Positions 36,755 through 62,757 of a stretch of DNA of 64,000 bases are shown one piece after another. The stretch spans positions 2,771,501 to 2,835,500 of the forward strand of contig NC_081810.1 of assembly GCF_030704535.1 (NCBI RefSeq), in the 5' to 3' direction. Both the position numbers and the translations under genes were made by a program. Position 1 is the first letter of the stretch, and each line of letters starts with the position of its first letter. The notes below the pieces were generated by a model. It was not told where the DNA came from, ran no database searches, and saw only the letters and a list, made by a program, of their open reading frames with translations. The stretch comes from Vitis vinifera. Taxonomy: Eukaryota > Streptophyta > Magnoliopsida > Vitales > Vitaceae.

Positions 36755-37385
36755 ATGACATCAGGGAGATCCAACTGGTGGTACTGTTGTTCGGGCTGTG
36801 CAAACAAGCTTGCTCCTTTTAGTGGTCTCTTTAAGGTATATATATACTATTTCTCTCTCTCCCTCCCTCCCTCTGTACATATAAGTAATAACATACATAT
36901 TACATTACTCTTGTAGGAACTTCTTTCGCATCGCACTCCGGAAAGTCGTCTCCTCCTCATTCGGGGTAACGGGTAGGATTTTGGATTTTCACCATTGTTA
37001 CGTACACATGCATGCGAGTTTTTTTCTTGTTAATTGCTGAATATGGCAGTGGATTGACGAATGTGAACTTTCAAGGAAAAGAGTCGATTAATCAAGTTCC
37101 AACTTGCGTTACACCTGCTCAGCTTCAAGATGAAAGTTGGATGGCTCAAACGAATCTGACCAATATCCACTGTTCTAATTGTGATACTCATGTTGGATGG
37201 AAAATTGTAAGATTCATCATTTGTTGTGGGTTTTGTGTTTTATAAATGCATATGCATGAGCCTTGGATTCATATTTACAGATTAATGAGCTCAGCAATCA
37301 CCCAATAGTCCGTCCAGGCCAATACATACTGCGGATTGATTCTGAGAATGAAATTATTTACTGGGAGAGGCCCAGGCCACGATGA
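36755..37385 (+). CDS. Yippee-like zinc-binding protein, copy Y1 (intact)
   Basis: Coding exons 36755-36835, 36917-36972, 37050-37206 and 37281-37385 give 132 aa; a non-coding first exon probably ends near 36548 (GCAATCAG). The first CxxC is C12-C15 (YCCSGC) and the second C87-C90 (NIHCSNC), followed by VGWKI at 94-98 and PGQYIL near the end. This order (CxxC, about 70 residues, IxCxxC, GWK, GxxIL) is the Yippee/CULT-type zinc-binding fold. Intron 2 uses GTAGGA; a closer GTAACG would break the frame, and the choice is fixed by alignment to the other copies. Yippee proteins are small, highly conserved eukaryotic proteins; some are subunits or substrate adaptors of ubiquitin ligase complexes. 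Outside the fold this copy is strongly diverged. Role in plants: not known to me. Confidence 0.75.
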
Positions 37386-37895
37386 ACTTGATTGAAGGAG
37401 AAATATGGCTGATGGATGTTGCTAGGTACCAAATCCAAATGGGATCGAAGCTACTGTTGACAAGTACCATTACAATTGATTCCATTCATTTCATTTGTTT
37501 TCCTATAGAATTCTTCTATTCAATGTTTATCAAGTTCTCCATAATTCCTATAGATGATATAGAAGGAAATCAATCATTCAACCAGACCAGAAGATAATCT
37601 CTAAGCACAACACCCAATATAAAAACAAATCAATCTTCCACTCCAATCACTCTAATCCCATGATTAATTACAACCTAACAATTACCTTGGACCATAAATC
37701 AGTCAGAGACATACATCCATGGTAATTATGAAATTCCATATTCAAGAATAGGCACAAATATCTCTTCCTAGTTGTACTGTATCAATTCCAGCTTTACATT
37801 CCTTTATTTTTTTCTATGTAATACCAATTCATTATTTTATAAAAATGCTAAGTCTGCAACTTCCTCATGTAATAGAGCAGTCGTTTGTTTGAAAT

Positions 37896-38105
37896 ATGAC
37901 TACTAGTGATGAACTATGTCTAACCATTCAATCAGTCCACCCATATTTGAGTTTAGTTTCGGTCAAATTGAGCTCCAACAATTTCCTTCTATGGAAAACC
38001 CAACTACTACCATTGATACGAAGTTTGAGAATAGCTCATCATATCATGATGAGTGAGATACCTGCGGCAAAAAAGAATAGACAATATAGAAGAGAAAACT
38101 CATAA
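37896..38105 (+). mobile_element. Copia-type gag fossil
   Basis: The frame carries the N-terminal part of a Ty1/Copia gag-like (UBN2/Retrotran_gag_2) region: residues of the type KLSSNNFLLWKTQLLPLIRS are diagnostic. Only this short piece is present; the element is broken, with no protease, integrase or reverse transcriptase next to it. Probably old. Confidence 0.65.
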
Positions 38106-38129
38106 TCTCTTGGCATGTAAGTTGGATAA

Positions 38130-41014: not shown

Positions 41015-41950
41015 AATGAAATTTATTTATTATGACATTATATCATGCTTTTTAAGACTCTATCCTTACAATTTCATGGTCACTTTGAGCATAGTTTCAA
41101 GCCATGTTCTATTAGTTAAGGGCATTGAAATCTATAAGTATAAGGTAGAGATAATTGCCAACCTTTCCACTTCTAGGACAGTGAGAGATGCAAAATCTTT
41201 TCAAGGATATGTAGGGTTTATAAGAGGTTTATTCAAGGATTTATTATTATAGTTTGGCCATTGTGCCCATTGTTGACTAAAGATAAACCTATTGAGTGGA
41301 TCAATGAATTCCGAGAGGTATTTGAGAGGCTTAAACCTTTGTTTATCACCATATCTGTTATGTACCCATCATACTAGTGTTACCTTTTAAGTTGATGTGT
41401 GATGCTAGTGATTAAGCCATATGACACACTTGGGCAAAGAGTGGACAAGAAGCCCCATGTGATCTTCTATTATAATAAATCTCGAGATAGTACTGGAATG
41501 AACTATTCCACAATGAAAAAAAGCTCCTAGCAATGTTTTTGACTTTGTATAAGTTTTGTCCTTATCATGTAGGTTCACTGGTGTTCAACATCTACCATTT
41601 AGACTTGAAGTTTTTGCTTGCTAACAAAAATGCTAAGCATATGTAGGTTGATCAGGTAGATTTTTTTATTGCAATAGATTCATTTTATCAATAAGTATAA
41701 AGAAGTCTATAATATGGTGGTTGATCACCTTTCAAGGTTATTATTTGAGGAGAAAGAAGAGTTAATTATCATGAATGATGACTTCTCGGATGAGTAATTA
41801 CTAGTTGCCTATGTAGTGCCCTAGTATGTGCATATTGTGCCCTATGTCTTCAAATGTTACCTTGATAAGATTATTACAACGTGCATATCAAATGAGGAAG
41901 GGCCTAATATCCTTAAGATTATATAATTAACACGACTGTGTTAGTTACCT
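41015..41950 (+). mobile_element. Gypsy (Ty3) pol fossil, copy 1
   Basis: The region starts in the late reverse transcriptase/connection part (a SFQGYVGFIRGLF phrase matches the family's RSFLGHAGFYRRF motif), continues through RNase H and ends in the pre-integrase region. It is broken many times and is old. Related pieces at 48050-49030, 52880-53400 (minus) and 62940-63200 show that it was copied together with the NAC/Yippee cluster. Confidence 0.75.
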
Positions 41951-42604
41951 CTCTATTAATATTTTCAAAATATAGAGAAAAATAAATTAATAGCATTTCT
42001 CTAATACCCAATTTCATTATATTATAATTAAGTTGCCTTCTAATATAGCGACTAGTGATTCTTCTAAAAAGCTGCATTAATACCAAGCTAACCCTTTATG
42101 GTATTAGGTAACACATCTAAACAAGTTCACTTCAATAAAAATAATAATATTTTAATTAAATCGTACACTTTGAAAATTTCCTTTTTTTATTACGATGGTG
42201 TTAATGGTATTTATTAGTTACAAACATTAAATTGGAAATGATTTATCAAATAATAATTATAATTATGAATGTTTTACATGAAAATGATATTGTAGAAATA
42301 GTGATTTGAGATTTTAATTAAGAAGCTACAATTTTTTATTTTTTATTTTTTTTTGAAAAATATTTAAAGACTAGAAAATTTTCTAACAATTTAAAAACTA
42401 TAAATTACATTATTATTATTATTAAAAATAACTAACTTTATTTAAGAATTCATTACTATTATTATTAAAAATAACTAATTTTATTTAAGAATTCACTATA
42501 TGAAAGGTCCAAGAATTTTGAATGTATAAAAAATAATGCTTAATAGGGGAATTATTATATTTATTGAAATTAATAAATAAATGCTTTAGTGATCTAGTTA
42601 CAAA
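41951..42604 (+). repeat. Cluster-wide flanking repeat
   Basis: The block with GCCTTCTAATATAGCGAC, TCTAAAAAGCTGCATTAATAC, CTTTATGGTATT, then GATGGTGTTAATGGTATTTA recurs at 63290-63610, and its end (AACTTTATTTAAGAATTCAC and ATGAAAGGTCCAAG) recurs at 46135-46180. Part of it (TATAATTGAGTTGCCT) also recurs at 49565-49650. It marks one of the duplicated units. Inside it, a 60 bp ATTATTATTATTAAAAATAAC block is itself tandemly doubled at 42408-42500. Confidence 0.6.
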
Positions 42605-42679
42605 ACACCAATGTTCTTGATTAAATTTAATAAAACAACCAACACTACCTCACTCCCTTTGTCTTGCTTTCTTTCATTT

Positions 42680-42785
42680 TCCCTCGTTTTACCTGGTTGT
42701 GTCACTTTCTTTCTTGCTTTCGAGAATGGAAGTTTCCCTCGTTTTACCTGGTTGTCACTTTCTTTCTTGCTTTCGAGAATTGAAG
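42680..42785 (+). repeat. Tandem duplication in the Y2 leader
   Basis: Two near-perfect head-to-tail copies of a roughly 52 bp unit beginning TTCCCTCGTTTTACCTGG and ending CTTTCGAGAATNGAAG. It lies in the leader region of the broken Yippee-like copy Y2. Confidence 0.8.
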
Positions 42786-43113
42786 TTGGGTTCGTAGAGC
42801 TTTGAAGAAGGTGTTGGAAGTAGTAGTTGCTTTGACATTCAACGTTTTGTTGTTGGACTTCTTCTTCATCAATCAGGTATCCTTCTTTCTTTGTTAATGT
42901 CTCTCACTGATTTCAACTAAGGGGAGTTGTTTCAGAGAAGTCTTCAAGAAACTGATAGTCTCTTTCAGTTAGAGTTTCTGATTCCACTTCCTTTACTCTT
43001 CTTTGGTTCTTTCTTTCCTTCTTTCTCTCTTTCTTTCTTGCTTTTCTCAGTACTGATATTGAAGAAGCTGACACTTTAATTTACTTCGATTAGGCATCTT
43101 GTTCAAAATTACA

Positions 43114-43525
43114 ATGTATTCATCAACATCCGAAGCCGACGTGTGGTTCTGTTGTGGGGATTGCGACTTGCTCCTTTTAATGGTCTCGTATATCATATGG
43201 TAATAACGAAAGTAGTTGGCTCCTCTTTGGTGAAAACGCGTAAGATTTTGGATTTTGACACTGGTTACATATACATATATTTATGTATACCTCTTTGTTT
43301 CTTGTTAATTGCTGCGTTTCTCTGTGTACATAAAATATATGGATATGATGAATATCACATACAGGTTCACCGGTATGAAGAGACCACCCAGTGGCTGTGA
43401 AGCTTGAAGCAATCAGTCAAGCTCCAGCTAGCGTTACATTGATCCATTTAGGTTAAAGATAAAGGTCAGACGACACAAACTGATATGGCCGATATCCACT
43501 GTTCTAATTGTGATTGTGTTTTGTA
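43114..43525 (+). pseudogene. Yippee-like copy Y2 (broken)
   Basis: It starts like the intact copies (ATG, then a protein beginning MYSSTSEADVWFCCGDCD), then five bases of the AACAAG codon pair are missing and the frame shifts. The first coding intron is gone, with exon 1 and exon 2 sequence (GCGAAAGTAGTTGG-like, then CTCCTCTTT) fused, and exon 3 is partial with GATATCCACTGTTCTAATTG still readable. A stray piece with GTTCACCGGTATGAAGAG matches the last exon of Y4. The leader and its GATTCATCAATCAG donor exon (to 42876) are still present. It lies about 0.7 kb upstream of the first NAC gene on the same strand. Confidence 0.75.
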
Positions 43526-43859: not shown

Positions 43860-44244
43860 GTTGTTTTGGATTAGGGTAATGTTTCTCAACCAATTAAATG
43901 AAATTTAAAACAAAAAAGTAAAATGAAAGAAAATACATAAGATAAGCACAAATTTTCATTAAAATTTAAAATTTAAAAAAAAAAAAAAAAACAAGATACA
44001 CATCATATCTGATTAACTGAATTCCAACCAATCATAAAAATAACCTAAAAGAAAAATATTCTGTTACTTACCAGCAATCCGTTTCAAATTAGACGACTCC
44101 TTGACCTCAAATCATAGTAGTACGTAGTATATTTGGGATTTTCCCAAAAGGAGACGACAGAGTAGAGAAAACTCAGGGAAATAGACCAGAAAGAGGAGAA
44201 AACTCAAACTCAGGCTTACTCTCAATCTCAAAAAAAAAAAAAAA
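43860..44244 (+). promoter_or_regulatory. Promoter region of NAC gene A (repeated in the cluster)
   Basis: This block, with AATTTTCATTAAAATTTAAA, ATACACATCATATCTGATTA, CTGTTACTTACCAGCAATCC and GACGACAGAGTAGAGAAAACTC, recurs before NAC gene B (60960-61310), inverted at 49800-50080, and in worn form at 58790-58990. The A and B versions are nearly identical up to the ATG. Confidence 0.6.
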
Positions 44245-45695
44245 ATGAATCTTTCAGAGCTTAGTGAGGATGCAAGTCTACAAACAGTAGAGGGAAAAGC
44301 AGAAGAAGTGCAGAATAGTAGTAGTAAAGGTGGAGAGCTTTTTGATCTTAATTCTTTACCACCAGGATACAGATTTAATCCCACAGATGCAGAGATTATA
44401 GTTTTCTACTTGAGGAAGAAGATTGATCATCAGTCATTGCCACCCAACAAGATAATAGAAGTCAATCTTTATGGTTATGATCCTGATGAACTTGCAGGTT
44501 ACTTATTTCTATATTCAAGTTCAATTGCTTGTTTATATATTATTTAGTACTTTTGCTCTTTTGCTAATAATTAATGATCTCGTGAATGAGTATTGAATGA
44601 GATGTAACATGGGCTGTCATTTCTTTTTGGCTATTGAAGTTTAAATGGTTTGCAAAGATGTTTTGAATTAGGGTTTTAGTAGGGTTTTACTTCTCTTTAG
44701 TATTATTGGCATATGTGAATTGATTTTTATTTTGATTGATGTTACTCAGCGAGATACGAGCCATCCGGGAATGATGAATGGTTCTATTTCACTCCAAGGG
44801 AAAGGAAATATCGGAATGGGCAACGTCCCAATAGGTCAATTGGAGAAGGATACTGGAAGGCCACCGGAGCTGATAAAGAGATCAAATTTGAGGATCGAAC
44901 GGTGGGGTATCGGAAGGCTTTAGTCTTCTACCGAGGAAGTGCTCAAAACGGAGTCAAAACCAACTGGATCATGCATGAATTCACAGTTGCTAAACCTCCA
45001 GGGCCTCCAAGAAGAAGTGGTGTCAATGATATGAGGGTATATATTATGTCCTCTTTTCATTTATTTTATATTGTATGTTAAGACACTTGTGCAGATTAAT
45101 ATGTATCATAATGTTTCTTGTTTGTTTGTTTTTGTTGCAGTTGGATGACTGTGTTCTATGCAGAGTCTATAGAACAGACGAAAGGATCTACAAAAGATCA
45201 CGGCATGCGTCTAGGCTTGATGAATCAGGCCCATCAGGCTCTAAGATTCCGAGACTTGACCTTAACCCTAATCCTAATGGGGTCAATAATCCATATGAGG
45301 AGCAGTACTATTATAATAGCATCCAGATGCCTCTCCAAGCCCAACAGCAACAACCTAGAACTGAAATATTCCAAGCCCCTCAAGAACCAGATCATTTTGC
45401 TCTGCAAAGCAACACCCAATACCCCATCCTGGACCCTAGTGTCTTGATGCCACTGCCCACTCCTCATCAGTCTATACACTATATTGGGAACGAATTTGGA
45501 GGTCAGGGTCTAGATAACTTTGATATAATGAATGGCGCCATTGGCAACAGCAGCTTTGATGCAGGGAATAGTAATGATTTTGGCAACGTCCCTGGGTTCG
45601 ATTCAACTGATTATGTATATCCGATGATTGATTATGGCAACGATGCTGCACCGATGCCTTCAAACATGAATGGCAACTACGGCCGGCAGCTATAG
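44245..45695 (+). CDS. NAC-domain transcription factor, type I, gene A
   Basis: Exons 44245-44497, 44750-45036 and 45141-45695 give 364 aa; the two introns sit at the standard NAC positions. NAC subdomains in order: [20 protein letters not shown] (about 37-56), [30 protein letters not shown] with [12 protein letters not shown], then [13 protein letters not shown] and KTNWIMHEF, and [11 protein letters not shown] at 181-191. The tail (about 200-364) is rich in Q, N, P and D, as in NAC activation regions. NAC proteins bind CGT/CACG-core sites as dimers in the nucleus. Subdomain D has [10 protein letters not shown] where most have APKGEKTNW. Gene B at 61311 is a near-identical duplicate. The biological role cannot be told from the sequence. 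Confidence 0.93.
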
Positions 45696-45979
45696 TAGTA
45701 GTTATATATGCTGGGTTTTCTGGACATAGTAGTGTTGTTATTATTACATGTTGGTAGAATATTGCATTTCATGTCATTCATGTAATCGAAATTTTTGTAA
45801 TAGGAGTAAATACATATATACAAGTTTGAACCCCCAACACTGGGTTTTTTCCTTTCTTTTTTTTTCGGTTGAATGTCATTAAACTTTATAACTTGTTCAG
45901 AGTAACTAACAAACAATTAATGACTTAATGAAAAGAAAAATAGAGAGATGGAAAACATCACCAAATATTTATGAATAGT

Positions 45980-46700
45980 TAAGAAAATTTTAAATCATCA
46001 AATAGTCTTTTAGTTTAAAATTTTGACAGTTTTCTCTACATGTATGTATATGGCACAAATGGAGGTCCTAGATTATACATTTGTTACATTTCTAACAAAT
46101 GTAAATTCCATTATTATTATTATTAATAAAAATAACCAACTTTATTTAAGAATCCACTATATGAACGGTCCAAATGAATTTTGAATGTATATAAAATAAT
46201 GCTTAATAGGGAAGTTATTGTATTTAATGAAATTAATAAATAAGTGCTTTAGTGATCTTGTTATAAAACACCAATGTTCTTCATTAAAATTAATAAAAAA
46301 AAATTACAGAGTTGATGGATGACGTGGAAATATAACAAGAATCTGTTAATTAGTAACTAAGTAGGTAACCTTCTCAATCTGCAGTATAATTATACCAATC
46401 ATATTCACAACTGCTTCTCCAAGAAAAACAACCTACTCTCCCTCTCTCATATTCTCTTGATCGCTTTGACATTCAACGTTTTGTTCTTCTTCTTCATCAT
46501 CATCAATCAGGTATCCTTCTTTCTCTTGCTGTCTCTCGTTTTCCCTCGTATTCCCTGGTTTTCTGGCACTTTCTTTCTTGCATTCAAGAATTGAATTTGG
46601 GTTCGTAAGGCTTTGAAGAAGGTGTTGGAAGTAGTAGTTGCTTTGATATTCAACGTTTTGTTGTTGGACTTCTTCTTCATGAATCAGGTATCCTTCTTTC
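45980..46700 (+). repeat. Duplicated leader block of Yippee-like gene Y3
   Basis: 46080-46270 repeats 42400-42600. 46310-46520 carries GATGACGTGGAAATATAACA and AGAATCTGTTAATTA, also found near 36470, 52475 and inverted at about 57790. The leader exon ending CATCAATCAG before GTATCC occurs twice here (46509 and 46687), so a roughly 190 bp stretch containing the leader exon and donor is duplicated in tandem and Y3 may have alternative first exons. Confidence 0.55.
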
Positions 46701-47047
46701 TTTGTTAATTGCTCTAATTGGTTTCAATTAAGTGGCGTTGATTCAGAGAAGTCTTCAAGAAACTGATAGTCTCTTTCACTTGGAGTATCTGATTCCACTT
46801 TCCTTCTCTTTCTTTCTCTGGAGAACTGAAATGAGCTAGCATTTTCTTTTCAAACATTAGACCTTTTTTTTTTTATCATTTCAAAGCTGATAAGTATCTT
46901 TTTCAGCTCATTGAATAGGATTTGGAATCTGCAACTCACTTCCTTTTTTCTTTCCCTCTTTCTCTCTCCCTTTCTTTCTTTCCTTCTTTATCAGCATTGA
47001 TATTGAAGAAGCTGATACTTTGATTAGGCATTTTGTTCAAAATTGCA

Positions 47048-47791
47048 ATGTCTACGCCAACATCTGAAGCCTACGAGTGGTTCTGTTGTGGGGATTGTGA
47101 TAACAAGCTTGCTCCTTTTAATGGTCTCGTTAAGGTATATATATGTATGCATACCTCTGTACGTATACAGGTGCATAGTTTTAGTTAAAGTAATAACATA
47201 CATATCTTATTGTTCTTGTAGGAACTTGTTTCACAATGCAATAGCGAAAGTAGTTGGCTCCTCTTTCGTGAAAACGCGTAAGATTATGGATTTTCACCAT
47301 TGTCACACATGCATATATTTATGTGGACCTCTTTGTTTCTTATTAATTGCTGGATTTCTGTATGTGTTAGGGTTGGAAACAAGAAATAATATTCAATTAA
47401 TGCATCTTTGGCACATAGTTAATTGTGTACAAAAAATTTATGGCAGTGGCTTGAATGTGAAGTTTAAAGGAAGAAAGGCAATTAATCTACCTCCAGCTAG
47501 TATTACGTCCATTCAGGTTACAGATGAAGGTCGGATATCTCATACTGATGTGGCCAATATCCACTGTTCTAAATGTGAAGGTCATGTTGGGTGGAAAATT
47601 GTAAGAATCATCGTTCCCTTGTTGTGGATTTTATGTTTTATATATGTACGTTAGCCTTGGATATATAATCTTAAGGTACATATTTTGGTGATTTACAGAT
47701 TCACGAGCACAACGATGACCCAATAATCCATAAAGGTCAATTCATACTGCATAATTCTTTTGGGGGAGGCAGACTTTCTCTCAAGTTATAA
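47048..47791 (+). CDS. Yippee-like zinc-binding protein, copy Y3 (intact)
   Basis: Exons 47048-47134, 47222-47277, 47447-47600 and 47699-47791 give 129 aa with the same intron phases (0, 2, 0) as Y1, Y4 and Y5. Zinc ligands: C14-C17 (FCCGDC) and C88-C91 (NIHCSKC), then VGWKI at 95-99 and KGQFIL. Between them ESSWLLFRENAG and VKFKGRKAIN sit where Yippee has its AYLF and NVxxG strands. A non-coding leader exon ends at CAATCAG (46509 or 46687); the leader intron ends at about 46994 (TTTATCAG). It shares the EWFCCGDCDNKLAPFNGLVK start with the dead copy Y2 and with Y5. It is the best representative of the local family consensus. Confidence 0.78.
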
Positions 47792-48049
47792 AATGGATGG
47801 ACAAAAATATGGCAGATGGATCTACCAATTAATCAGATTTCTGATTCTGTTTGTTTTCCTATCATGGCTGTAGATGTAGGTACCAAGTCCGAATGGGATG
47901 CTGCTGTTGAGAAGTGTTATAATTGATTGGATTCATTTCTTTTCCTATAGAATTCTTCTATCCAATGTTGAGTGAAAAATTGTGATAGCTTTACTACTGT
48001 TCCATTCAGTTTGCATTTTGGAATGAATGTGTCCATGAGAAACATATAA

Positions 48050-49030
48050 AATTATAGGGATGCATGGCTCATCGTGCCATGCTTTTCAAGACCATCCAAA
48101 CAATTGCATGGTCAATTTGAGCATGGTTTCAAGCCAAGTTGTGTAAGCTAAGGGCATTGAAAAAAATAGTTTCTAACCAATCAAGGTAATTGCCAACCTT
48201 TTTACCTCTAGGACAGTGAGAGATATGAGATCTTTTAAGGCGATGTAGGGTTTACAAGAGGTTTCATTCAAGGATTTAGTAGTATTGTAGTATAGTTAGA
48301 CCATTGTGCCAATTATTGGCTAAATATAAACCTATTGAGTGGATCAATGAATTCCGAGAGGTATTTGTGAGGCTTAAGCCTTTGCTTATAACCGCACCCA
48401 TCATGTAGCCGGCAGACTAGTGTCGCCCTTTTGAGCTGACACTAGCATTAATTAAGCCATATGCAACCATGCTTGGGCAAAAAGGGACAAGAAGCCTATG
48501 TGATCTTTTGTGCTAATAAAGTTTGAGATAAAACCTGTATGAACTATTCCACAATGGAAAAAGAGCTCCTTGGAATGTGAATAAGTTTAATCCCTATCAT
48601 ATAAGTTCACTGATTATGGTGTTTCATATCTACCATTTAGCCTTGAAGTATTTCTAGCTAACAAAAATACCAAGCATAGGTTGATTCGGTAGATCTTTTT
48701 GTTACAAGAAATTCAATTGATCAATAAGCATAAAGAAATATAATGTGCTGGTTGATCGTATCTCAAGGTGATGGTTTGAGGAGAAAGAAGAGTTAATACT
48801 CATAAATTGACTCCTCAGATGAGCAATTACTAGTTTCCCATGTAGAATTTGTGCACATTGTGAACCATTTGGTAGTAGGCAATGTCTCGATGAAGTTCCA
48901 AAGATTGAAAAAGTTTCTTTTTAAAAATTAGGAATTTCTATGAGATGATCCGTATGTCTTTAAATGTTGCCTTGATAAGATTTTTACAAGGTGTATACCA
49001 AATGAGGAAGTGTCTAATGTGTCCCTACCT
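48050..49030 (+). mobile_element. Gypsy (Ty3) pol fossil, copy 2
   Basis: Same stretch of Gypsy pol as at 41015-41950, from the end of reverse transcriptase through RNase H to the pre-integrase region, with a slightly longer right side. Old and broken many times. Its place just after a Yippee-like gene matches copy 1's place after Y1. Confidence 0.7.
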
Positions 49031-49689: not shown

Positions 49690-50080
49690 GAAAAAAAATA
49701 AAAAAGGAAAGTGGAATCATCAACCATTACCACCACCACCATCAAGCAAGATTGAAACTATTAGTTCTTCACCCGTAGGACAAGATCTATACCCTGGTGG
49801 TAAAGAGTTAAAAACCAAGGAGTCTAATTTAAAAAGAACGGGTACCGTTAATAACTTACAGGTTTTATTTATTTATTTATTATGATCGGATGGAATTCGG
49901 TTAATATGTGCTTTGTTATTTTTAAAATTTAAAATTTAAAATTTTTAATGAAAATTTGTGCTTATCTTATATATATATATATATTTTTTTTTTAAAAAAA
50001 AAATTTCATTTAATTGTATTAATCTTAATTTTCATGGAAGTGGCCCAATCGAAATTGCTTGAAAAACATTACCATGATAA
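49690..50080 (-). pseudogene. NAC type I promoter and exon-1 remnant
   Basis: On the minus strand 49830-49740 reads [20 protein letters not shown], a decayed NAC subdomain A, and upstream (49840-50080) it keeps the NAC A/B promoter words (AAGGAGTCTAATTT read on plus, and AATTTTTAATGAAAATTTGTG). It stops in low-complexity GGTGGTGGTGGTAATGG. The DNA-binding part is absent, so this is a dead fragment. Confidence 0.65.
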
Positions 50081-50574
50081 AAAAAATAACGAAATTTAAG
50101 ACTAACAAGAATGATCGTTGCACCCACTTATGGCTGTTTAATTTATTTTTTTCCTAACTACAATTTTATTCCATAAAATAACTCTTACTTTATTAAAATA
50201 AAAATAACCAACTCATGTAGTATGCTCAACAGCAATCCACAGTATATGTAACAGGTGATTCCTAACTGTTTTTCTCAAAAATAAAAAAATAAAAAAAACC
50301 AACTCTCCCTCCCTCTCATTTTCTCTCCTGTTCCTCTACTTTCTTGGGAAAATTTATGGTGATAGTCCTCCAACTGAAACTCATCTTCACCTGGAATAGA
50401 ATTGTTCTTCTTGATGAATATCAGGTATTCTCTCACTTCAAATCTCCAGTTCCAAAGTATGTGCAAACTGCAAGCCTCATTAATCATCCTTCCTTTCTCA
50501 ATTTGTTAGCCCCGAATCAAGAAACTAGCAGGTATTTCTGGTTTCTCTCATTCAACAATTTTTTTCTAGTTCCA

Positions 50575-51443
50575 ATGGAAATGCCCGAGGCTGACCTTCC
50601 ACCAGAAATTCGCGAAAACCGACACCCTCTCCCACCAGAAATTCAAGAAAGCGATATTGAAGAGATTTACAATGCTATTGAATATATTCTTGATCAAGAT
50701 CAAGAAGTTCTTGCTCAGATGTTCACTTGTACGAATTGCCATACTGACTTAGCCAGCCCGAATGATTTCATTGAGGTACTTGCTGTTTTCCCTATAATGA
50801 TTTACCTGTGATTTATACTGATATGGCTACTTTATCCCCCAAGATTTCATGCTTTCGTTGCTACTTTTCCTAGGATATTTACCCATTAGACGATTCCCCC
50901 GTGCGCAGCTTACTCTTCAATAACGTGTAAGTTCTTATTTCTCATCATAGAAGTATAGGAGTGCTGCTTTTTCTTGTTCAAGGTCACCACATAAATTTCT
51001 GAAGGCACTCTGGTTGAGAAGAAGGAAATTAAAGCATTCTTCTTAGCCAGTTAATTTTCTTGATTGGTTTTCATTGGTTCTGTGATTAAAACATACTCAC
51101 TTCTTTGGGTTTTGATTGTTTATATGAACAGTAGGAATGTGAACTTTGGAGGAGTACAAGACCGAGTTTCTACGCATCTACATCAAACTGAAGTGGTCGT
51201 GAGTCATATCCACTGTAATTCATGCCAAAGTTTTGTTGGGTGGAAAATAGTAAGGACTGATGGAACATTGCCACCAGTAAGGATTTATCGATCAATCCCA
51301 TCTTACAAATTATTCTATCTTCATACATTAGCAAGCTTTAATCTTAGGGATATGATGAATATCAGATACAGGTTCACGGGTATGGAGTCCACCCAGTAAT
51401 CCGCGCAGGCCAAGCCGTGCTGCTAGTTATGACCGACGGATGA
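50575..51443 (+). CDS. Yippee-like protein with acidic N-terminal extension, copy Y4
   Basis: Exons 50575-50775, 50874-50926, 51132-51249 and 51366-51443 give 149 aa, intron phases as in the other copies. The first 48 residues form an acidic, proline-containing extension (PEADLPPEIRENRHPLPPEI, then IEEIYNAIEYILDQDQEV) not found in the others. Ligands: C52-C55 (FTCTNC) and C113-C116 (HIHCNSC), then VGWKI at 120-124. The middle of the domain is shorter by about 12 residues (exon 3 is 118 bp versus 154-157 bp). The upstream frame continues without a stop to 50344, but a donor at CAG/GTATTC (50425) and an acceptor TTTCTAG near 50570 suggest that part is leader plus intron; ATG 50575 is preferred. 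Confidence 0.7.
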
Positions 51444-51857: not shown

Positions 51858-52312
51858 TCTTTGAATTTGATAAAACTTAATATTTATTATTTAATGACTT
51901 AAATTGACTTTAAATTAAATTATATTTAAGTAATCTACTTAAAACATATTACTTAATTCTTAAATTAATTTTTAAGGTTGTTTGATAAAATTAACTTAAA
52001 ATTTATTTTAAATCATCAAATTAATTGACATATTTATCTTTATAAATTATAAGTAGGGCAAATGAGGTTGATTAATAATGGAGGTCGTGGAGTAGCAAAA
52101 GAGATTGTGGAGGTAATTAGGGCAAATGATGATAAAAAAATAAAATAAAGATACATACTTAAAAATAAGTTAATTGTTTTTACTTATTACTTAAAACATT
52201 CTTTTAACTTTAAGTCATATTATTAAGTAATTTTACCAAACATACTTAATCTACTTATTAAGTCATTTTAAGTTATTAAGTTGGTTTATCAAACACTTAC
52301 TTCAGTTATAAT
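51858..52312. mobile_element. TIR element (MITE), copy 3 of 3
   Basis: About 455 bp. The left end is TTTGATAAAACTTAATATTT, the interior has GGTTGTTTGATAAAATTAAC, GGAGGTCGTGGAGTAGCAAA and GTGGAGGTAATTAGGGCAAA, and the right end is TTAAGTTATTAAGTTGGTTT followed by ATCAAACACTTAC, inverse of the left end. It matches copies 1 and 2 (26696 and 27150) in order and content and has the best-preserved termini. Confidence 0.65.
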
Positions 52313-52469
52313 CTATAATTTTTTTTTTAAAAGAAAGAAATTCCAATTCATTCATTTGAAGCAAGCATCAATTTATTTCATTTTAATTTGGTAAATTTGA
52401 TAATTAATCCAGACAACCAAGATTAATGTATAAAATATAATCTTAAATATTTTCATGCAGTTCGTGAAA

Positions 52470-52690
52470 AAAATGAATTGATGACGTGGAAATATAACAA
52501 GAATCTGTTAATTAATAAGCAAGTAGGACTTAATCAGCAGTATACGTGTATATAACTATCATTTATAATTAACAGGGAGAAAATGAGGGACAGCAAGAGA
52601 ATGTGACAGAGGGAGAGTTGCTTGTTTTTCTTGGATCGGGAATTATGATAGTTATACTGCAGATTGATGAGGTTATACTTGTTAATTGAC
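52470..52690. repeat. Rearranged Yippee promoter fragment (inverted halves)
   Basis: It opens with GATGACGTGGAAATATAACA and AGAATCTGTTAATTA, as upstream of Y1 and Y3, then runs into an opposite-strand copy: on the minus strand 52660-52560 gives CTGCAGTATAACTATCATAA, CCAAGAAAAACAAGCAACTC and TCCCTCATTTTCTCCCTG, the continuation of the same promoter seen at 46380-46450. The two halves face each other. No Yippee coding exon is attached. Confidence 0.5.
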
Positions 52691-53400: not shown

Positions 53401-54464
53401 ATTTTTCTTGATACCTTGCCAAGATTGGGAGGGTTATGAGTAGTATATATGAGATTCAACAATTGGCTTATCGTTATCTAAATAAGTAGTTTATTGTCCA
53501 TGAGAATCAATGATGGAGTCTTATTAAACAGCGGAAATGGGTGTTGCTCACAAAGGGTGAAGTGCTAGATGGATGATAATGTAAAATTGAATTGTACAAG
53601 TGGCATCAAAGTTGACATCTTACTCGAGAGGTATATTTGGGCTTCACTTCTTGTGTAATCACTTCCTCAAGCAGCACCCTACTTATCACACGGGGCATGA
53701 GGGGACTGATCATAGCCCTCCAATGACCATTGTAGATCATCTCAAAGTGTCAGTCTTATACTAAATAATGATGAAATATTACAAAAAAAAAAAAAAAAAA
53801 ACTCTTTCCCTCTACTATATACTAATTAGTCTTGTACTAATCGTCAAGGAAAACATGATATTAAAACTTAATGGCACATGAATGAGCACATGTTCATTGA
53901 ACAATCATTACATTTGATACTAGTTGAGATCCATCATTAGAAGCCAAAGAAAAACAAGGGTAACTGTGATGGTTGTAGTAGAAACAGATTATCATAAGCT
54001 TCAAGTTCTACCTACGAATGTTGAGCCCTAGAACCCATAACATTCTGCTAGCTACCTTGAACTCCAAAATCATATGGTGGAATCAACCTCTAGGCAAAAG
54101 TTGATCAATATTTGCTGATCATGAAAACCCTTCTTTTGTTCTTATTGATAATCACAAATATCATTTAACTGAATTTTGAAAGTACTGAAACTTTCAGGAG
54201 TGACAATGATCACGATTTAAAAAAAAAAAAGAAAATATAAAAAATATGTTCAAATAATGAAAACCATTATAAATCTTTGTGATTGATGACTAAATATTTC
54301 ACAACACATTGAAAAACTGTGCATTGTATATGTATTTAATCTATATGTCATAAATTGCTAAAACTTTAATGACAAATATAATCCTATAATAACATCTAAT
54401 ACACTCATATATAACAACACTACTAAGTCCAGAAAACCCACAATATATAACTACTAGTCTACTA
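53401..54464. other. Spacer before NAC gene C (3' side), no gene seen
   Basis: No gene recognised. The last 140 bases (54320-54460) match the 3' flank of NAC gene D at 59130-59270 (TATTTAATCTATATGTCATA, AAATTGCTA, ATGACAAATATAATCC), so they belong to the duplicated NAC type II unit. Confidence 0.45.
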
Positions 54465-56023
54465 CTATAGCTGTCGATTATTGTTTCTTCCATGCAGCAA
54501 ACGACGGTCGTAGTTGCCATTCATGTTTGAAGACATTGGTACAGCATCGTTGCCATAATTAATCATCGGACATATACCCGGGTTTCCATAATCAATTGAA
54601 TCAAACCCAGGGACGTTGCCAAAATCAATATTATTCCCTGCATCAAAGCTGCTGTTGCCAATGGCGCCATTCATTCTATCGAAGTAATCTAGACCCTGAC
54701 CAATAGAGTGTATAGGCTGATGAAGTGGCATGAAGACACTAGGGTCCAGGATAGGGAATTGGGTGTTGTTTTGCAGAGCAAAATTATCCTGTTCTTGAGG
54801 GGTTTGGAATATTTCAGTTTTGGGCTGTGGCTGTTGGGTTTGGAGAGGCATCTGGCTGCTATTATAATAGCTAGCACTGCTCCTCATATGGATCAGCATA
54901 ACTTATTATTTGGTTCAGCTCCTGACCTGTGCCTTGCGTGAAAAGCCTTGTTTGACCCCATTTTGCTCCATTCCACCAGATTCAACCTTCACAGGGTGAG
55001 GAGGCTCAGGCTCGGGCTCTGGTGCATGGGTTGATGATCTTCTTCTAAGGGGTTTGTTAGGTTGCTTATAAATTTTGCTTAACACAATGTCCAACTGATA
55101 CAAATAGGAAGAGTTATCAAAAGATGAATGAAGGTTTTGGGAATAATAGTATAAAACCGTAAAGATGAAAAGGCTTCATACCCTCATGGTATTTGCACTA
55201 GGGCTTCTTGGGGGTTCCTTGCCTCTAAACTCATACATGATCCAATTGGTTTTCTCCCCCTTTGGTGTCTTTCCCCTGCAGAAAACCAACACCTTTCTGT
55301 ACCCAATGGTTTGATCCTCACATTTGATAGCCTTATCACCCCCAATGGCCTTCCAGTATCCCTTGCCAGCCCTCCTGCTGGGTCGCATCCCATTTGGATA
55401 CTTTCTGTCTCTTGGTGTAAAGAAGAACCATGCGGCAATCTCATCATTATAGTTCCCGCATGGAGGAAACAACGCTGAGAATGATATTTGAAAGGAGAGG
55501 AAAGACTAGTTATTGCTAGCTCTGAATGAGACCAGCCAGATAATTCAGACACATCAACCATCAAGAAACAAGAAAAAAAAAAACCCAGTTCTGATCATGT
55601 TGCAAGATCATCACAGGGAAGCATCAAGAAAAAGAAAAGAAGCGAATATAAATATGAATATGAATAGAAAAAAGAAAAAAAAAACGAAACAGTTCTGATC
55701 ATGTTGCAAGATCATCACAGTTTAGAAATTTCACCTGTAAGATCCTCTGGATCATACTGATAGAGATCAACTTCCACGATCCTGTTAATGGGCAATGGCT
55801 TGTTTTCAATCTTGGGCCTCAAGTAATACAAGATGACCTCTTCATCAGTAGGGGAGAACTTGTAGCCAGGAGGCATAGAATTCAGGAACTCATCTTTGTT
55901 TTTGAATCTATAATCCAGAATGCGTATTTCTTCTTCTGCTTCTTCTAGCTTTGGAATTCTAAAGCCACCAACAGGCACTTGCGTACTACCCACCATCTCC
56001 CTCTGTGTGTTTATGAAGTCCAT
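54465..56023 (-). pseudogene. NAC type II gene C, truncated by indels
   Basis: Minus-strand exons 56023-55735 and 55474-55182 are intact and code the DNA-binding part: [83 protein letters not shown]. Exon 3 starts at 55094 (LDIVLSKIYKQPNKPLRRRS). Compared with gene D it lacks one base in the AATGGGGTCAAAC stretch; translation then stops at 54915, so the product is about 253 aa. Farther on, a four-base TAGC insertion restores the phase, and the old C-terminal frame (54899-54465) stays readable to NNRQL. The DNA-binding domain could still be made without the activation tail, which might act as a dominant negative (inference). WKAIG replaces the usual WKATG. A TATA box lies at 56044-56053. Confidence 0.8.
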
Positions 56024-56043
56024 CTCAAAGAGGTGTTTCCTAT

Positions 56044-56053
56044 TTTTATATAG
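56044..56053 (-). promoter_or_regulatory. TATA box of NAC gene C
   Basis: Minus-strand CTATATAAAA, 21-30 bases before the ATG at 56023. The same box with similar flanks (AAACTATATAAAAATAGGAA) lies before NAC gene D at 60754-60763. The distance to the ATG is short, so the transcript leader would be very short or a downstream ATG (MVGSTQ) would be used. Confidence 0.5.
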
Positions 56054-56701
56054 TTTTTTTTTCTTTTTTATTTTTCTGTTTTATGATAAATTACATAGAG
56101 TTTTAGTAGCCTTTTAACTCCATCTTATCTTAGTATTTTTATTTGACTCCAACTCCAAGTCCTTTGTAGGCTTTTAACACTCCAACTCCAAGTCCTTCAA
56201 CTATAACTTAAAATGCTTCTAAGAGTTTGCATTAAAGTAAAGAATCGTTGGTGCTTTTTGAAGTTAACAATTACCGTCCATTGCAGTCAAATAAATGAAT
56301 CTGAAAATCTTCTAAAACTAATTAAAAAGACATGCAGGATGATTATAAAGCCTTTAGGATGTGGTTAAATTAACCCCATGATGAATATGAATGAATATAA
56401 TTTTCTTTAAGACACACTGGCTAACTTAAAGATTTACTTTTTAATTAATTGAAGTGATGATTTGTCTCTTGTTAAAATGATGAGTTTTTCAATTTATTTA
56501 TTTTTCTAAGTAGAGAATATTTTTTCCTTTCAGAGACACATTGGTTCCAAAATGAAAACTGAATGGAAGAGAAGTAAATCTAGTATTGCATTTCAGGTTT
56601 TGAGTTTGAGTTGCATCACTTGGTTATGGGAAAAGAAACGAATGTCAAATCTTGTCTACGTACAGCCATGATAGCAAGGAACACAAACAGAATCAGAAAT
56701 T
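56054..56701. other. Intergenic DNA between NAC C and Y5
   Basis: It holds the upstream region of NAC gene C and the 3' side of Y5. The phrase TTTTTATTTGACTCCAACTCCAAGTC occurs here (56137) and before NAC D (60867), confirming a duplicated promoter; a shorter CTCCAACTCCAAGTCC repeat follows at 56181. No gene is seen. Confidence 0.5.
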
Positions 56702-57414
56702 TCAGCCATGTTTTCTTCCTTGTGTTTTATGGCATGGAGCGAATATCTGACTCTCCCAGCTATCCTGATAAAAACTCTGCAGTATGAATTGGCCTTTATG
56801 GACTACTGGGTGATTGTTGCGCTCACGAATCTGTATATCACCATCCAATGCTATTTAATGTACATATATATAATAAAAGTAAAACACAAAATCCACATGA
56901 CCTTCATCGAATCCTTACTATTTTCCATCCAACATGACCTTCACAATTAGCACAGTGGATATCTGCCATATCAGTTTGAGTGCTCCGACCTGCATCTCTA
57001 ACCTGAATGGATGTCACACTGGCTGGCGCTTCAGTAATTGCCCTTCTTCCATCAAACCTCACATTCAAGCCACTGCCATAGATTTTATGTACACAATTAG
57101 CTATGTGCCAATTAGATGTATTAATCGAATTCTATGTCTTGTTTCCAACCCTAACACACAGAAATTCAGAAATTAACAAGAAACAAAATCTTACGCATTG
57201 TCGCGAAAGAGGAGCCAACGACTCTTGCTATTGCGATGTGAAACAAGTTCCTACGAGACAATAAACTTTAACTAAAACTATGCACATGTATATGTACAGA
57301 AGGAGAGAGAAAAATAGATACACATACATATACCTTAACGAGACCATTAAAAGGAACAAGGTTGTTATCGCAATCCCCACAACAGAACCATACGTCGGAT
57401 GTTGATGACGACAT
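56702..57414 (-). CDS. Yippee-like zinc-binding protein, copy Y5 (intact)
   Basis: Minus-strand exons 57414-57334, 57250-57195, 57072-56919 and 56830-56702 give 139 aa. It starts MSSSTSDVWFCCGDCDNNLV; ligands are C12-C15 and C86-C89 (DIHCANC), then VGWKI and HKGQFIL. The C-terminal tail after the domain is longer (to KTQGRKHG) and ends in a basic stretch. Phases and exon sizes match Y3 (56 and 154 bp for exons 2 and 3). The leader exon on minus ends at 57592 (CATCAATCAG before GTATCC) and the promoter repeats the GACGTGGAATATATATAACC theme near 57790. It lies between the two minus-strand NAC type II genes. Confidence 0.78.
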
Positions 57415-57829
57415 TGCAATCTTGAGCAAAATGCCTAATCCATGTGAATCATAGTATCAGCTTCTTCAATATCAATGCCGATAAAGCAAGAAAGAAAGAG
57501 AAAAGGAAGTGGAATCAGAAATGAAGGCTTCTCTGAAACAACACCCCTTAATTAAATTCCATGAGAGAGATTAACAGAGAAAGAAGGATACCTGATTGAT
57601 GATGATGAAGAAGAAGAACAACAACAAAACGTTGAATCTTTCTTCAAAGTTATACGTACCCAACTTCAATTCTCAAAAGAAAGTGAGAGAAAATGAGGGA
57701 AAATAAGAGAAAGCGAGAGAATGTGAGAGGAGTTGGTTGTTTTCTTGGAGAAACAGTTTTGAATCTGATAACAGATTCCGGTTATATATATTCCACGTCA
57801 TCAATCAATTCCTGTAAATTTTTATTAAT

Positions 57830-58789
57830 AAAAATAAAAAGAAATAATTTGTACCTTACATTAGATTTATCAAACTTATCAAATTAAAATGATTCTTGCT
57901 TTGAATGAATTTTTGGAAATTTTCAATTTTTTTTAATAAAAAGATTATTTATATACTTTACATTTAAAAAAAAATTATTTAGCTTATAAAAGTTTATAGT
58001 ATGTTTTATAATTAAAAAACCTTATTATAAAAACAAAAATAAAGTTATTTTTAGTTAATTAAAAATTTTAAAATATCATAATTACGTTTGATAAAATATT
58101 TTAAAGATAATATGTAGATATAAAATTGAAGATGGAAACTTGTATCTACATAAAAGATGCGTACATTTGTATAATATATACCATGGTATGGCGTAGATTT
58201 CTTTGAACTCTTTCAATGGATTTCTATATCATAGAAATTACTTATATTTATTATTCTATATCTCCTATTAAATTATGATGTTATGCCATAGAAGAGCTTA
58301 GCAAACACTAAAAGCAAAAACTTTAAGTTTTAAGTTTTGAAGAAATACAGAGAGAATTAGATTTTTAATTAATTAGAAAATTTAAAATTATTATAATTAT
58401 TTTTAGTAAAAATGTTTTTAAAATAACATCCAATTACACAATTATCTATAACAAGACTAATCATAAGATAACTAAATTTATATTGTCTTAGGTTATGTAT
58501 GATTCCGAAAAGTATTAAGGAAAGAAAAAAAAAGGTTAGGAAAATGGTATTTTTGTATTTGGTTTCATCATAAGAAATATAGAAGAAAATCAAACATAAT
58601 TAAAATTTGTCAAAAATATATATGTTTTTAAATTATTTAATATTTATATAGTGGAGAAAAATAAAGAAGAATTATTTAGTTTAAATCTATTTTTTATTTT
58701 CCTTTACATTTTATCTCTATTTTCTTTCTCTCACATTTTTCAGAGAACCAAACATAACCTTAGAGTTTTTTGAATCATGGTAATATTTC
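57830..58789. other. AT-rich intergenic DNA
   Basis: Very AT-rich, with no gene and no element I can delimit. 58560-58760 resembles 63640-63900 (TTCTTTCTCTCACATTTTTC and its inverse, AACCAAACATAA), again a shared piece of the cluster. Confidence 0.4.
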
Positions 58790-59060
58790 TCTATGAAAAT
58801 TAAGATCAATACAATTAAATAAAATTTTTAAAAAATAAAAAGAAAGAAAAAATATTAGATAAGCACAAATTTAAAAAATATATAACAAGATAAACCAATC
58901 ATAAAAATAACCAAAAAAAAAAAAAATCTGTTAGTTACCATTTCAAACTAGACACTTCCTTGATCTTAATTCTTTACTAGCAGCTTAATCACTTGATCTT
59001 AATTCTTGACGTGGAGTTGATAGTTTATTACTTGACGTGGAGTTGCTCGGTGGGAATGGC
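58790..59060 (+). repeat. Worn NAC type I promoter and exon-1 start fragment
   Basis: 58800-58960 follows the NAC A/B promoter (ATTAAATAAAATTTTT, AAGATAAACCAATCATAAAA, CTGTTAGTTACCATTTCAAA) and ends with GATCTTAATTCTTTAC, as in exon 1 of gene A. That last phrase and GACGTGGAGTTG are each doubled nearby (58990-59050). No coding potential is left. Confidence 0.45.
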
Positions 59061-59270
59061 TGATGATGAACCTTCTATTTTATAAATCTTTAAGATATAT
59101 ATATACGTAGAAGATACATAAGATATTACTTAGTTTTTGGGCTCAAAATTGTATATGTATTTAATCTATATGTCATAAATTGCTATAACATCAATGACAA
59201 ATATAATCCCATACCAACATTCATATAACAACACTACTAAGTCCAGAAAACCCAGCATATATAACTACTA

Positions 59271-60711
59271 CTATAGCTGCCGGCCGTAGTTGCCATTCAT
59301 GTTTGAAGACATCGGACATAAACCCGGGTTTCCATAATCAGTTGAATCGAGCCCAGGGACGTTGCCGAACACAATAGATGCATCCAAGTCAGGGACATTG
59401 CCAAAATCAATATTATTCCCTGCATCAAAGCTGCTGTTGCCAAAGGCGCCATTGATTATATCGAAGTTATCTAGACCCTGACCTCCAAATTCATTCCCTA
59501 TAGAGTGTATAGGCTGATGAAGAGTGGGAAATGGCATGAAGACACTAGGGTCCAGGATAGGGAATTGGGTGTTGCTTTGCAGAGCAAAATTATCATGTTC
59601 TTGAGGGGTTTGGAATATTTCAGTTGTGGGCTGTGGCTGTTGGGTTTGGAGAGGCATCTGGCTGCTATTATAATAGCACTGCTCCTCGTATGGATCGGCA
59701 TAACTTATTATTTGGTTCAGCTCCTGACCTGTGCCTTGTGTGAAAAGCCTTGTTTGATCCCCATTTTGCTCCATTCCACCAGCTTCAACCTTCACTGGTT
59801 GAGGAGGCTCAGGCTCGGACTCTGGTACATGGGTTGATGATCTTCTTGTAAGGGGTTTGTTAGGTTGCTTATAAATTTTGCTTAACACAATGTCCAACTG
59901 AAATACAAATAGGAAGAGTTATTAAAAGATGAATGAAGGTTTTGGGAATAATAGTATAAAATCGTAAAGATGAGAAGGCTTCATACCCTCATGGTATTTG
60001 CACTAGGGCTTCTTGGGGGTTCCTTGCCTCTAAACTCATACATGATCCAATTGGTTTTCTCCCCCTTTGGTGCATTTCCCCTGCAGAAAACCAACACCTT
60101 TCTGTACCCAATGGTTTGATTCTCGCATTTGACAGCCTTATCACCCCCAATGGCCTTCCAATATCCCTTGCCAGCCCTTCTGCTGGGTCGCATCCCATTT
60201 GGATACTTTCTGTCTCTTGGTGTAAAGAAGAACCATTGGTCAATCCCATCTTTGTGGTTCCCGCATGGAGGAAACAGCGCTGAGACACATCAAGCATCAA
60301 GAAACAAGAAAACAAACCCAGTTCTGATCATGTTGCAAGATCATCACAGCAAAGCATCAAGAAAAAGAAAAGAAGCGAATATAAATATGAATATGCATGG
60401 TAGAACAAAAAAAAAAAAAAAAATTATCACAGTTCAGAAATTTCACCTGTAAGATCCTCAGGATCATACTGATAGATATTGACTTCCATGATCCCGTTAA
60501 TGGGCAATGGCTTGTTTTCAATCTTGGGCCTCAAGAAATATAAGATGGCCTCTTCATCAGTAGGGGAGAACCTGTAGCCAGGAGGCATAGAATTCAGGAA
60601 CTCATCTTTGTTCTTGAATCTGTAATCCAGAATGCGTATTTCTTCTTCTTTTTCTTCTTCTGGCTTTGGAATTCTAGAACCACCAACAGGCACTTGCGTA
60701 CCACCCACCAT
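59271..60711 (-). CDS. NAC-domain transcription factor, type II, gene D
   Basis: Minus-strand exons 60711-60447, 60279-59987 and 59897-59271 give 394 aa. Subdomains: SMPPGYRFSPTDEEAILYFL (about 41-60), [56 protein letters not shown] with [15 protein letters not shown], then LDIVLSKIYKQP. The tail is rich in Q, N, P and G and ends [10 protein letters not shown], the same last residues as type I genes, so the two types share an ancestor or have exchanged 3' exons. WKAIG replaces WKATG. Gene C starts nine residues earlier (MDFINTQREM); here that ATG is lost (CTG AAA TTC), so the start is taken at the next Met, 60711. A TATA box lies at 60754-60763. It stands head-to-head with gene B. Confidence 0.92.
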
Positions 60712-61310
60712 CTCCCTCTGTGTGTTTATGAATTTCAGAGAGAGCTTTCCTATTTTTATATAGTTTTTTATTTTTTTTATTTTTATTTTTATTTTTTTCA
60801 GTTTTATGATAAATTTAAAAAATAAATTAAATTAAGTGTTTGTAGGCATTTTAACTTCGTCTTATCTTATTTTTATTTGACTCCAACTCCAAGTCCAACT
60901 ATAACTTAAAGTGGACATCCATGTGGTTTAACTACTTTTTAAATTTTAAATTTTTAATGAAAATTTGTGCTTATCCTCTATCTTTTTCTTTTTTTTTTAG
61001 TTTTTTTTTAATTGCATTAATCTTAATTTAAATTTTCATTAAAATTTAAATTTTTAATTTTAAAAAACAAGATACACATCATATCTGATTAACTGAATTC
61101 CAACCAATCGTAAAAATAACCAAAAAGAAAAAAAAAATCTGTACTTACCAGCAATACGTTTCAAATTAGACTCCTCCTTGACCTCAAATCATAGTAGTAC
61201 TACGTATTATATTTTTCCCAAAATGAGACGACAGAGTAGAGAAAACTCAGGGAAATAGACCAGAAAGAGGAGAAAACTCAAACTCAGGCTCACTCTCAAT
61301 CTCAAAAAAA
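60712..61310. promoter_or_regulatory. Shared upstream region of NAC D (minus) and NAC B (plus)
   Basis: A 599 bp interval separates the two divergent start codons. The left part (to about 60910) is the type II promoter also found upstream of gene C, including the minus-strand TATA box CTATATAAAA at 60754-60763. The right part (60960-61310) is the type I promoter also found upstream of gene A. The interval is thus a fusion of two promoters, each known from a separate locus in this window. Shared regulation is possible but not shown. Confidence 0.6.
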
Positions 61311-62757
61311 ATGAATCTTTCAGAACTTAGTGAGGATGCAAGTCTACAAACAGTAGAGGGAAAAGCAGAAGTGCAGAATAGTAGTAGCGAAGGTGGAGAG
61401 CTTTTTTATCTTAATTCTTTACCACCAGGATACAGATTTTATCCCACAGATGCAGAGATTATAGTTTTCTACTTGAGGAAGAAGATTGATCATCAGTCAT
61501 TGCCACCGAACAAGATAATAGAAGTCAATCTTTATGGTTATGATCCTGATGAACTTGCAGGTTACTTATTTCTATATTCAAGTTCAATTGCTTCTTTATA
61601 TATCCTTTAGTACTTGTGCTCTTTTGCTTATAATTAATAATGATATCGTGAATGAGTATTGAATGAGATGTAACATGGGCGGTCATTTCTTTTTGGCTAT
61701 TGAAGTTAAATGGTTTGCAAAGATGTTTTGAATTAGGGTTTTACTTCTCTTTAGTATTATTGACATATGTGATCAATTGATTTTTATTTTGATTGATTTT
61801 ACTCAGTGAGATACGAGCCATCCGGGAATGATGAATGGTTCTATTTCACTCCAAGGGAAAGGAAATATCGGAATGGGCAACGTCCCAATAGGTCAATTGG
61901 AGAAGGATACTGGAAGGCCACCGGAGCTGAAAAAGAGATCAAATTTGAGGATCGAACGGTGGGGTATCGGAAAGCTTTAGTCTTCTACCGAGGAAGCCCT
62001 CAAAACGGAGTCAAAACCAACTGGATCATGCATGAATTCACAGTTGCTAAACCTACAGGGCCTCCAAGAAGAAGTGGTGCCAATGATATGAGGGTATATA
62101 TTAAGTCCTCTTTTCATTTATTTTATATTGCATGTTAAGACACTTGTGCAGATTAATATGTATCATAATGTTTCTTGTTTGTTTGTTTGTTTGTTTTTGT
62201 TGCAGTTGGATGACTGTGTTCTGTGCAGAGTCTGTAGGACAGACGAAAGGATCTACAAAAGATCACGGCATGCGTCTAGGCTTGATGAATCAGGCTCATC
62301 AAGCTCTAAGATTCCGAGACTTGACCTTAACCCTAATCCTAATGAGGTCAATAATCCATATGAGGAGCAGTACTATTATAATAGCATCCAGATGCCTCTC
62401 CAAGCCCAACAGCAACAACCTAGAACTGAAATATTCCAAGCCCCACAAGAACCAGATCATTTTGCTCTGCAAAGCACCCAATACCCCATCCTGGACCCTA
62501 GTGTCTTGATGCCACTGCCCACTCCTCATCAGTCTATACACTATATTGGGAATGAATTTGGAGGTCAGGGTCTAGATAACTTTGATATAATGAATGGCGC
62601 CATTGGCAACAGCAGCTTTGATGCAGGGAATAGTACTGATTTTGGCAACGTCCCTGGGTTCGATTCAACTGATTATGTATATCCGATGATTGACTATGGC
62701 AACGATGCTGCACCGATGCCTTCAAACATGAATGGCAACTACGGTCGGCAGCTATAG
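61311..62757 (+). CDS. NAC-domain transcription factor, type I, gene B
   Basis: Exons 61311-61560, 61807-62093 and 62206-62757 give 362 aa. It is almost the same as gene A over exons and introns: it lacks one Glu near residue 21 and one Asn in the tail (QSTQYP versus QSNTQYP). Some differences touch the domain: RFYPTD for [16 protein letters not shown] for [17 protein letters not shown] for ELAARYE, RVCRTDE for RVYRTDE. Asp in the WKATGxDK loop is strongly conserved in NAC proteins, so D to E there could alter DNA contact (inference). The TTTG microsatellite before exon 3 has more units than in gene A. Intact and probably functional. Confidence 0.93.

Follow-up and report, generated by a model that had tools for sequence, protein, structure and literature searches.

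Plant gene families are known to form tandem arrays that evolve by birth and death, with local duplication, inversion, broken copies, orphan promoters and exchange between copies. All of these features recur in a cluster of Yippee-like and NAC genes of grapevine (Vitis vinifera), located at positions 36755-62757 of a 64,000-nucleotide stretch of contig NC_081810.1 (assembly GCF_030704535.1, positions 2,771,501 to 2,835,500; the whole stretch is called here the window, its GC content is 33.5% and it contains no N), with the difference that here two unrelated families are interleaved within 26 kb. In tomato, Yippee-like genes are numbered consecutively (Solyc03g096140/150/160) and expression changes have been reported for them (PMC13161086); by their numbers, they too appear to be adjacent. 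Among the matches listed in our literature search, which left most subscription journals outside its coverage, neither a Yippee/NAC cluster nor a NAC tail exchange was found in titles or abstract openings; a preliminary description of the window had likewise known of no described case of such a pairing. The overall pattern is birth-and-death evolution in a rearranging array, including the formation of a chimera. The explanation that fits best, and which we regard as probable, is an array of single-gene modules that rearranged repeatedly and in which two NAC subtypes came to share one C-terminal tail.

Gene models were built by hand from conserved exons, spliced, and their introns were checked for GT-AG. 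They reproduced the numbers and coordinates given in the preliminary description: four open and one broken Yippee-like genes, the open ones with four exons, and, in two NAC subtypes (NAC-A and NAC-B), three open genes and a truncated one. NAC and promoter fragments are scattered between the genes, and both strands are used, as had been noticed. The genes, fragments and repeated blocks are the following.

36755-36835, 36917-36972, 37050-37206 and 37281-37385, plus strand: Yip36, open, four exons, 132 amino acids (spliced model)
42450-43514, plus strand: leader and broken Yip43, ATG at 43114, exon 1 disrupted and the VGWK stretch absent (self-comparison, model check)
46110-47791, plus strand: leader and open Yip47, 129 amino acids; gene 47048-47791, exons 47048-47134, 47222-47277, 47447-47600 and 47699-47791 (spliced model)
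50575-50775, 50874-50926, 51132-51249 and 51372-51443, plus strand: Yip50, open, 147 amino acids, the oldest Yippee-like copy (spliced model)
57414-56702, minus strand: Yip57, open, 139 amino acids, with a leader upstream to about 57861 (spliced model)
44245-45695, plus strand: NAC-A1, open, three exons, 364 amino acids, in the duplicated module 43950-45888 (spliced model, Pfam)
61311-62757, plus strand: NAC-A2, open, 362 amino acids; exons 61311-61560, 61807-62093 and 62206-62757 (spliced model)
56023-54465, minus strand: NAC-B1, early stop after residue 253 in exon 3 (spliced model)
60711-59271, minus strand: NAC-B2, open, 394 amino acids; exons 60711-60447, 60279-59987 and 59897-59271 (spliced model, Pfam)
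49698-50087, minus strand: n49, a NAC 5' flank and exon-1 fragment (self-comparison)
58765-59083, plus strand: n58, a NAC 5' flank fragment (self-comparison)
52467-52562, plus strand: orphan Yippee leader/promoter fragment (self-comparison, motif)
41036-41915, plus strand: degenerate, Gypsy-like block G, with block X adjoining to about 42345 (self-comparison, weak RT_RNaseH)
48070-49027, plus strand: second copy of block G (self-comparison)
53446-52690, minus strand: inverted copy of block G (self-comparison)
62940-63624, plus strand: partial block G with block X (self-comparison)

The self-comparison proposed in the preliminary description was run on 35.5-64 kb, with reversed or complemented sequence and shuffles as controls. 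It gave 70 repeat matches of 67-1574 bits; the 896 control comparisons, which used other tile sizes and are thus a rough guide, peaked at 67.2 bits, so that the weakest matches (67-75 bits) are doubtful. Sensitive BLAST searches had produced many low-E matches of 54-60% identity in the AT-rich DNA, most of which were dropped after the shuffle and reversed-sequence controls. Gene copies recur as modules of about 1-2 kb that hold one gene each. Yippee modules run from the leader to the 3' flank, NAC modules measure about 1.9 kb, and block G with block X is separate. The edges of the NAC-A (43950-45888 and 61030-62929), NAC-B (54323-56238 and 59148-60964) and Yip47/Yip57 (46756-48055 and 56514-57739) modules fall between genes, and no self-match above the controls in 35.5-64 kb contained coding parts of a Yippee-like and a NAC gene together.

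Ages were estimated from trimmed noncoding Kimura two-parameter distances (K80, or K) with block-bootstrap intervals, which replaced untrimmed values inflated by unrelated flanks. The following distances were obtained (with the intervals in parentheses): 0.041 (0.022-0.062) or 0.054 (0.031-0.083), depending on trimming, for NAC-A1/A2; 0.106 (0.065-0.160) for NAC-B1/B2; 0.160 (0.108-0.221) for the Yip43/Yip47 leader and 0.166 (0.084-0.271) for the Yip43/Yip57 leader; 0.143 (0.108-0.179) up to exon 3 and 0.221 (0.151-0.303) overall for Yip47/Yip57; 0.214 (0.178-0.256) between the block G copies at 41 and 48 kb and 0.286 between those at 41 and 53 kb; and 0.226 (0.161-0.304) between the block X copies at 41 and 63 kb. 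Fragment n58 differs from the NAC-A1 5' flank by 0.179 (0.125-0.228), which is inside the epoch of the Yippee copies. Yip36 and Yip50 are much older than the three Yippee copies at K 0.14-0.22; Yip36 is separated by 0.478 from Yip47 and by 0.533 from Yip57. Synonymous divergence (Ks) gave the same order (A1/A2 0.046, B1/B2 0.128, Yip47/Yip57 0.296, Yip36/Yip47 0.407, Yip47/Yip50 0.941) and placed the NAC-A/NAC-B split at 1.5-1.9. Trees of four copies per family agree in depth, two Yippee nodes being modestly supported (0.836 and 0.637). By these distances the NAC-A duplication postdates every Yippee duplication measured (Yippee pairs at K of at least 0.143, lowest limit 0.084), the NAC-B duplication may be contemporary with the Yippee copies, and the A/B split is far older than the neighbouring Yippee copies (K about 0.15). 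A burst at K of about 0.14-0.23 seems to have touched the Yippee copies, the fossil block and the NAC fragment alike.

The preliminary description had proposed that Yippee and NAC genes were amplified as compound units. In this explanation the two families were copied as fixed blocks, which gene conversion, deletion and inversion later overwrote in part; we consider it distinctly less likely, although several observations speak for it and weigh against separate copying. The gene order is interleaved, and the age interval of NAC-B overlaps those of the Yippee copies. Yip50 is flanked head-to-head by fragment n49 and, in the same order, Yip57 by n58; the latter, a NAC-A fragment, has the age of the Yippee epoch. 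The two fragments match each other (127 bits, controls at most 20) and the Yip50 and Yip57 leaders match weakly (59 bits, controls at most 33), with overlapping intervals for their distances: K 0.405 (0.265-0.577) for n49/n58 and 0.651 (0.485-0.903) for the leaders. It is possible that n49-Yip50 and n58-Yip57 descend from one old joint duplication; the stretches between NAC fragment and leader gave no match (21.2 bits, controls up to 23.8). Block G lies 3' of Yip47, NAC-B1 and NAC-A2 in identical orientation, its start point after NAC-A2 differing from that after the other two genes. Finally, the NAC duplications may be older than their distances suggest, if gene conversion has homogenized the copies.

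What tells against compound units is the junctions and the ages. Flanking blocks and leaders had been described as shared between units: block G and the leaders are indeed repeated, but the four NAC-Yippee spacers have no common sequence (of their 6 pairings, 4 scored under the reversed or complemented controls and 2 exceeded them by only 0.7 bits). Linked Yippee and NAC copies should, on the compound-unit proposal, show matching divergence; this applies to NAC-B1/B2 and n58 only, whereas, set beside the adjoining Yippee copies, NAC-A1/A2 is too recent a pair and the A/B split much too ancient. The proposal fails for NAC-A and for the A/B split; it may apply to NAC-B and to one old pairing of NAC fragment and Yippee gene.

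That alleles or haplotigs were placed in tandem by the assembly, creating false copies, is improbable. It would concern chiefly NAC-A1/A2, which differ by just 3.5%, a value that a very heterozygous plant might reach; however, the neighbours of A1 and A2 differ on both sides, the remaining pairs are too divergent, and the window is free of N.

The most interesting part of the array, which went unremarked in the earlier reading, is the tail shared by the NAC subtypes:

45289-45833, plus strand: common NAC tail in NAC-A1, breakpoint 45288 (self-comparison, Ks, max-chi-square)
59139-59695, minus strand: common NAC tail in NAC-B2, matching 45289-45833 of NAC-A1 (self-comparison, Ks, max-chi-square)

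The tail comprises the C-terminal half and the 3' untranslated region (3'UTR), into which the likeness continues. Between NAC-A1 and NAC-B2, Ks is 1.50 (0.98-2.54) in exons 1-2 and 1.38 (0.72-2.47) in the first part of exon 3, and drops to 0.22 (0.12-0.35) in the rest of exon 3. The 3'UTR of the tail gave K 0.254, with a wide interval (0.108-0.524). The branch between A and B measures 0.48 in exons 1-2 against 0.088 in the tail, where A and B diverge by 0.168-0.176. The max-chi-square test put the breakpoint at 45288 in A1/B2 and A1/B1 and at the equivalent position 62353 in A2/B2; in each of these three pairs the score was reached by 0 of 2000 permutations, in a test that presumes evenly spread differences. 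Ectopic exchange most likely gave two old NAC DNA-binding domains one tail, and gene conversion or unequal recombination inside exon 3 is the simplest cause, both the recombination mechanism and any direction of exchange being inferences. Since the tail is present in A1, A2, B1 and B2 alike, the exchange would precede both pair duplications. A second sign of ectopic exchange is a 55-bp piece with 89% identity between 43338-43392, in Yip43, and 51345-51397, in the exon-4 region of Yip50, a much older gene. Strong constraint on a tail that is mostly coding would be a very improbable alternative, as silent sites (Ks 0.22) and the 3'UTR are also close and omega, the ratio of nonsynonymous to synonymous divergence, is higher in the tail (0.59) than in exons 1-2 (0.23). 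We give equally little credit to a selected regulatory module, in which fast-evolving Yippee-like zinc-fold proteins would serve as adaptors and control the turnover of the adjoining NACs through the common, recently exchanged tail, keeping neighbourhood and tail together.

Under the single-gene-module explanation, a divergent Yippee-like family would have come to neighbour a NAC family in a rearrangement-prone local array. Most copies would have arisen at differing times as modules reaching from promoter to 3' flank, to be shuffled by non-allelic recombination between repeats, inversion and decay. One burst at K of about 0.14-0.23 would have affected both families and the fossil block, and around that period recombination or gene conversion would have given one C-terminal exon-3 half, with its 3'UTR, to the ancestors of both NAC-A and NAC-B. 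The gene models, module edges, ages and breakpoint in this account are observed.

NAC is a plant family, in keeping with the origin of the window. Two NAC proteins were scanned whole. With a Pfam NAM cut-off of 27, NAC-A1 scored 142 bits and NAC-B2 133 bits, and they matched SNAC1 (3ulx) with E values of 9e-50 and 1.4e-42, respectively. The full NAM domain is shared with SNAC1 and ANAC019 (1ut4); what sets the grapevine proteins apart is that two old subtypes bear one common tail, and the subtypes differ in that NAC-B has WKAIGGDK at the place of WKATGADK in NAC-A. Omega for NAC-A1/A2 was 0.34 (0.14-0.85). The NACs are presumably expressed and would act as transcription factors.

One of the four Yippee-like proteins, Yip50 (27.9 bits), passed the Pfam Yippee-Mis18 cut-off of 26.6, whereas the other three fell just under it (24.8 for Yip36, 24.3 and 22.4), with E values of 1.4e-4 or better. 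C12, C15, C86, C89, G94, W95 and K96 are invariant in all four and make up the two CxxC pairs and a GWK after them. When the four proteins were combined into a profile, it matched YPEL5 (PDB 8qbn chain Y, E 0.00027), the alignment covering the two CxxC pairs as well as the GW behind them. In the Yippee family about 52 residues separate the CxxC pairs; the spacing is 57 residues in Yip50 and 70 in Yip57 (hand count on the models), and because of this departure the proteins are called Yippee-like. They also differ from the family in that three of four lie under the cut-off and in their omega values of 0.66-0.96 in five pairs, for example 0.70 (0.40-1.10) for Yip47/Yip57 and 0.96 (0.65-1.50) for Yip36/Yip47; omega = 1 is compatible with all five. 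In neutral simulations (2000 trials each, 0.075-0.12 substitutions per site, with or without indels at 0.1 per substitution) the reading frame stayed open in 0.15-3.7% of trials with indels and in 12-34% with substitutions only. Selection on the Yippee frames is thus likely, the case from the open frames being stronger when indels are simulated than with substitutions only. The proteins are predicted to be expressed and to act as zinc-fold proteins. Members of the Yippee family are partners of the CTLH/RanBPM E3 complex. Plant Yippee proteins were co-purified with AtRanBPM (PMC3464593).

The leader motif GATGACGTGGAAATATA occurs exactly three times; in 100 shuffles, occurrences with up to 3 mismatches averaged 0.29 and no shuffle had three. 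Block G had been taken for a Gypsy fossil, and its four shared copies bear out the block itself. Its Gypsy identity is tentative: one of five fragments gave sub-cut-off matches to RT_RNaseH_2 (E 0.1) and RT_RNaseH (E 0.16), and none of five further fragments matched pol families, one giving a sub-threshold GlpM match. The possibility that a Yippee gene follows block X at 58 kb, and that another lies just beyond the window edge, was considered and dropped: the match of 58.49-58.93 with 63.45-63.95 kb looks like an element resembling a miniature inverted-repeat transposable element (MITE) with related ends, and where 41.7-42.3 kb resembles 62.9-63.6 kb the resemblance ends before the Yippee leader. 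The two AT-rich segments concerned, 58493-58927 and 63452-63953, are MITE-like, related to each other and alike at their ends. Another AT-rich repeat, dispersed, some 330-415 bp long and perhaps a MITE, is present in three copies (51866-52279, 26706-27113 and 27162-27490). An AT-rich inverted repeat at 60939-61057, a possible inversion point, separates the head-to-head NAC-B2 and NAC-A2. An Rfam scan gave no match. Elsewhere in the window, sulfite/nitrite reductase domains are encoded at 29616-30951 (plus strand) by a gene at about 28-33 kb, which precedes the cluster by a few kb and can serve as a synteny anchor. A Tudor-domain (PTM/DIR17-like) reading frame is noted at 18972-20666 (plus strand) and 14758-15945 (minus strand); an inverted partial copy of the segment 18423-19642 exists, with 78% identity.

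The cluster is a compact case of two families that seem at first to have been amplified together, although their ages and junctions point to mostly separate copying. The NAC tail exchange would amount to a natural domain swap, in which DNA-binding domains that split anciently carry one C-terminal tail and 3'UTR; with one tail on two old NAC domains, the contribution of each half is therefore directly testable.

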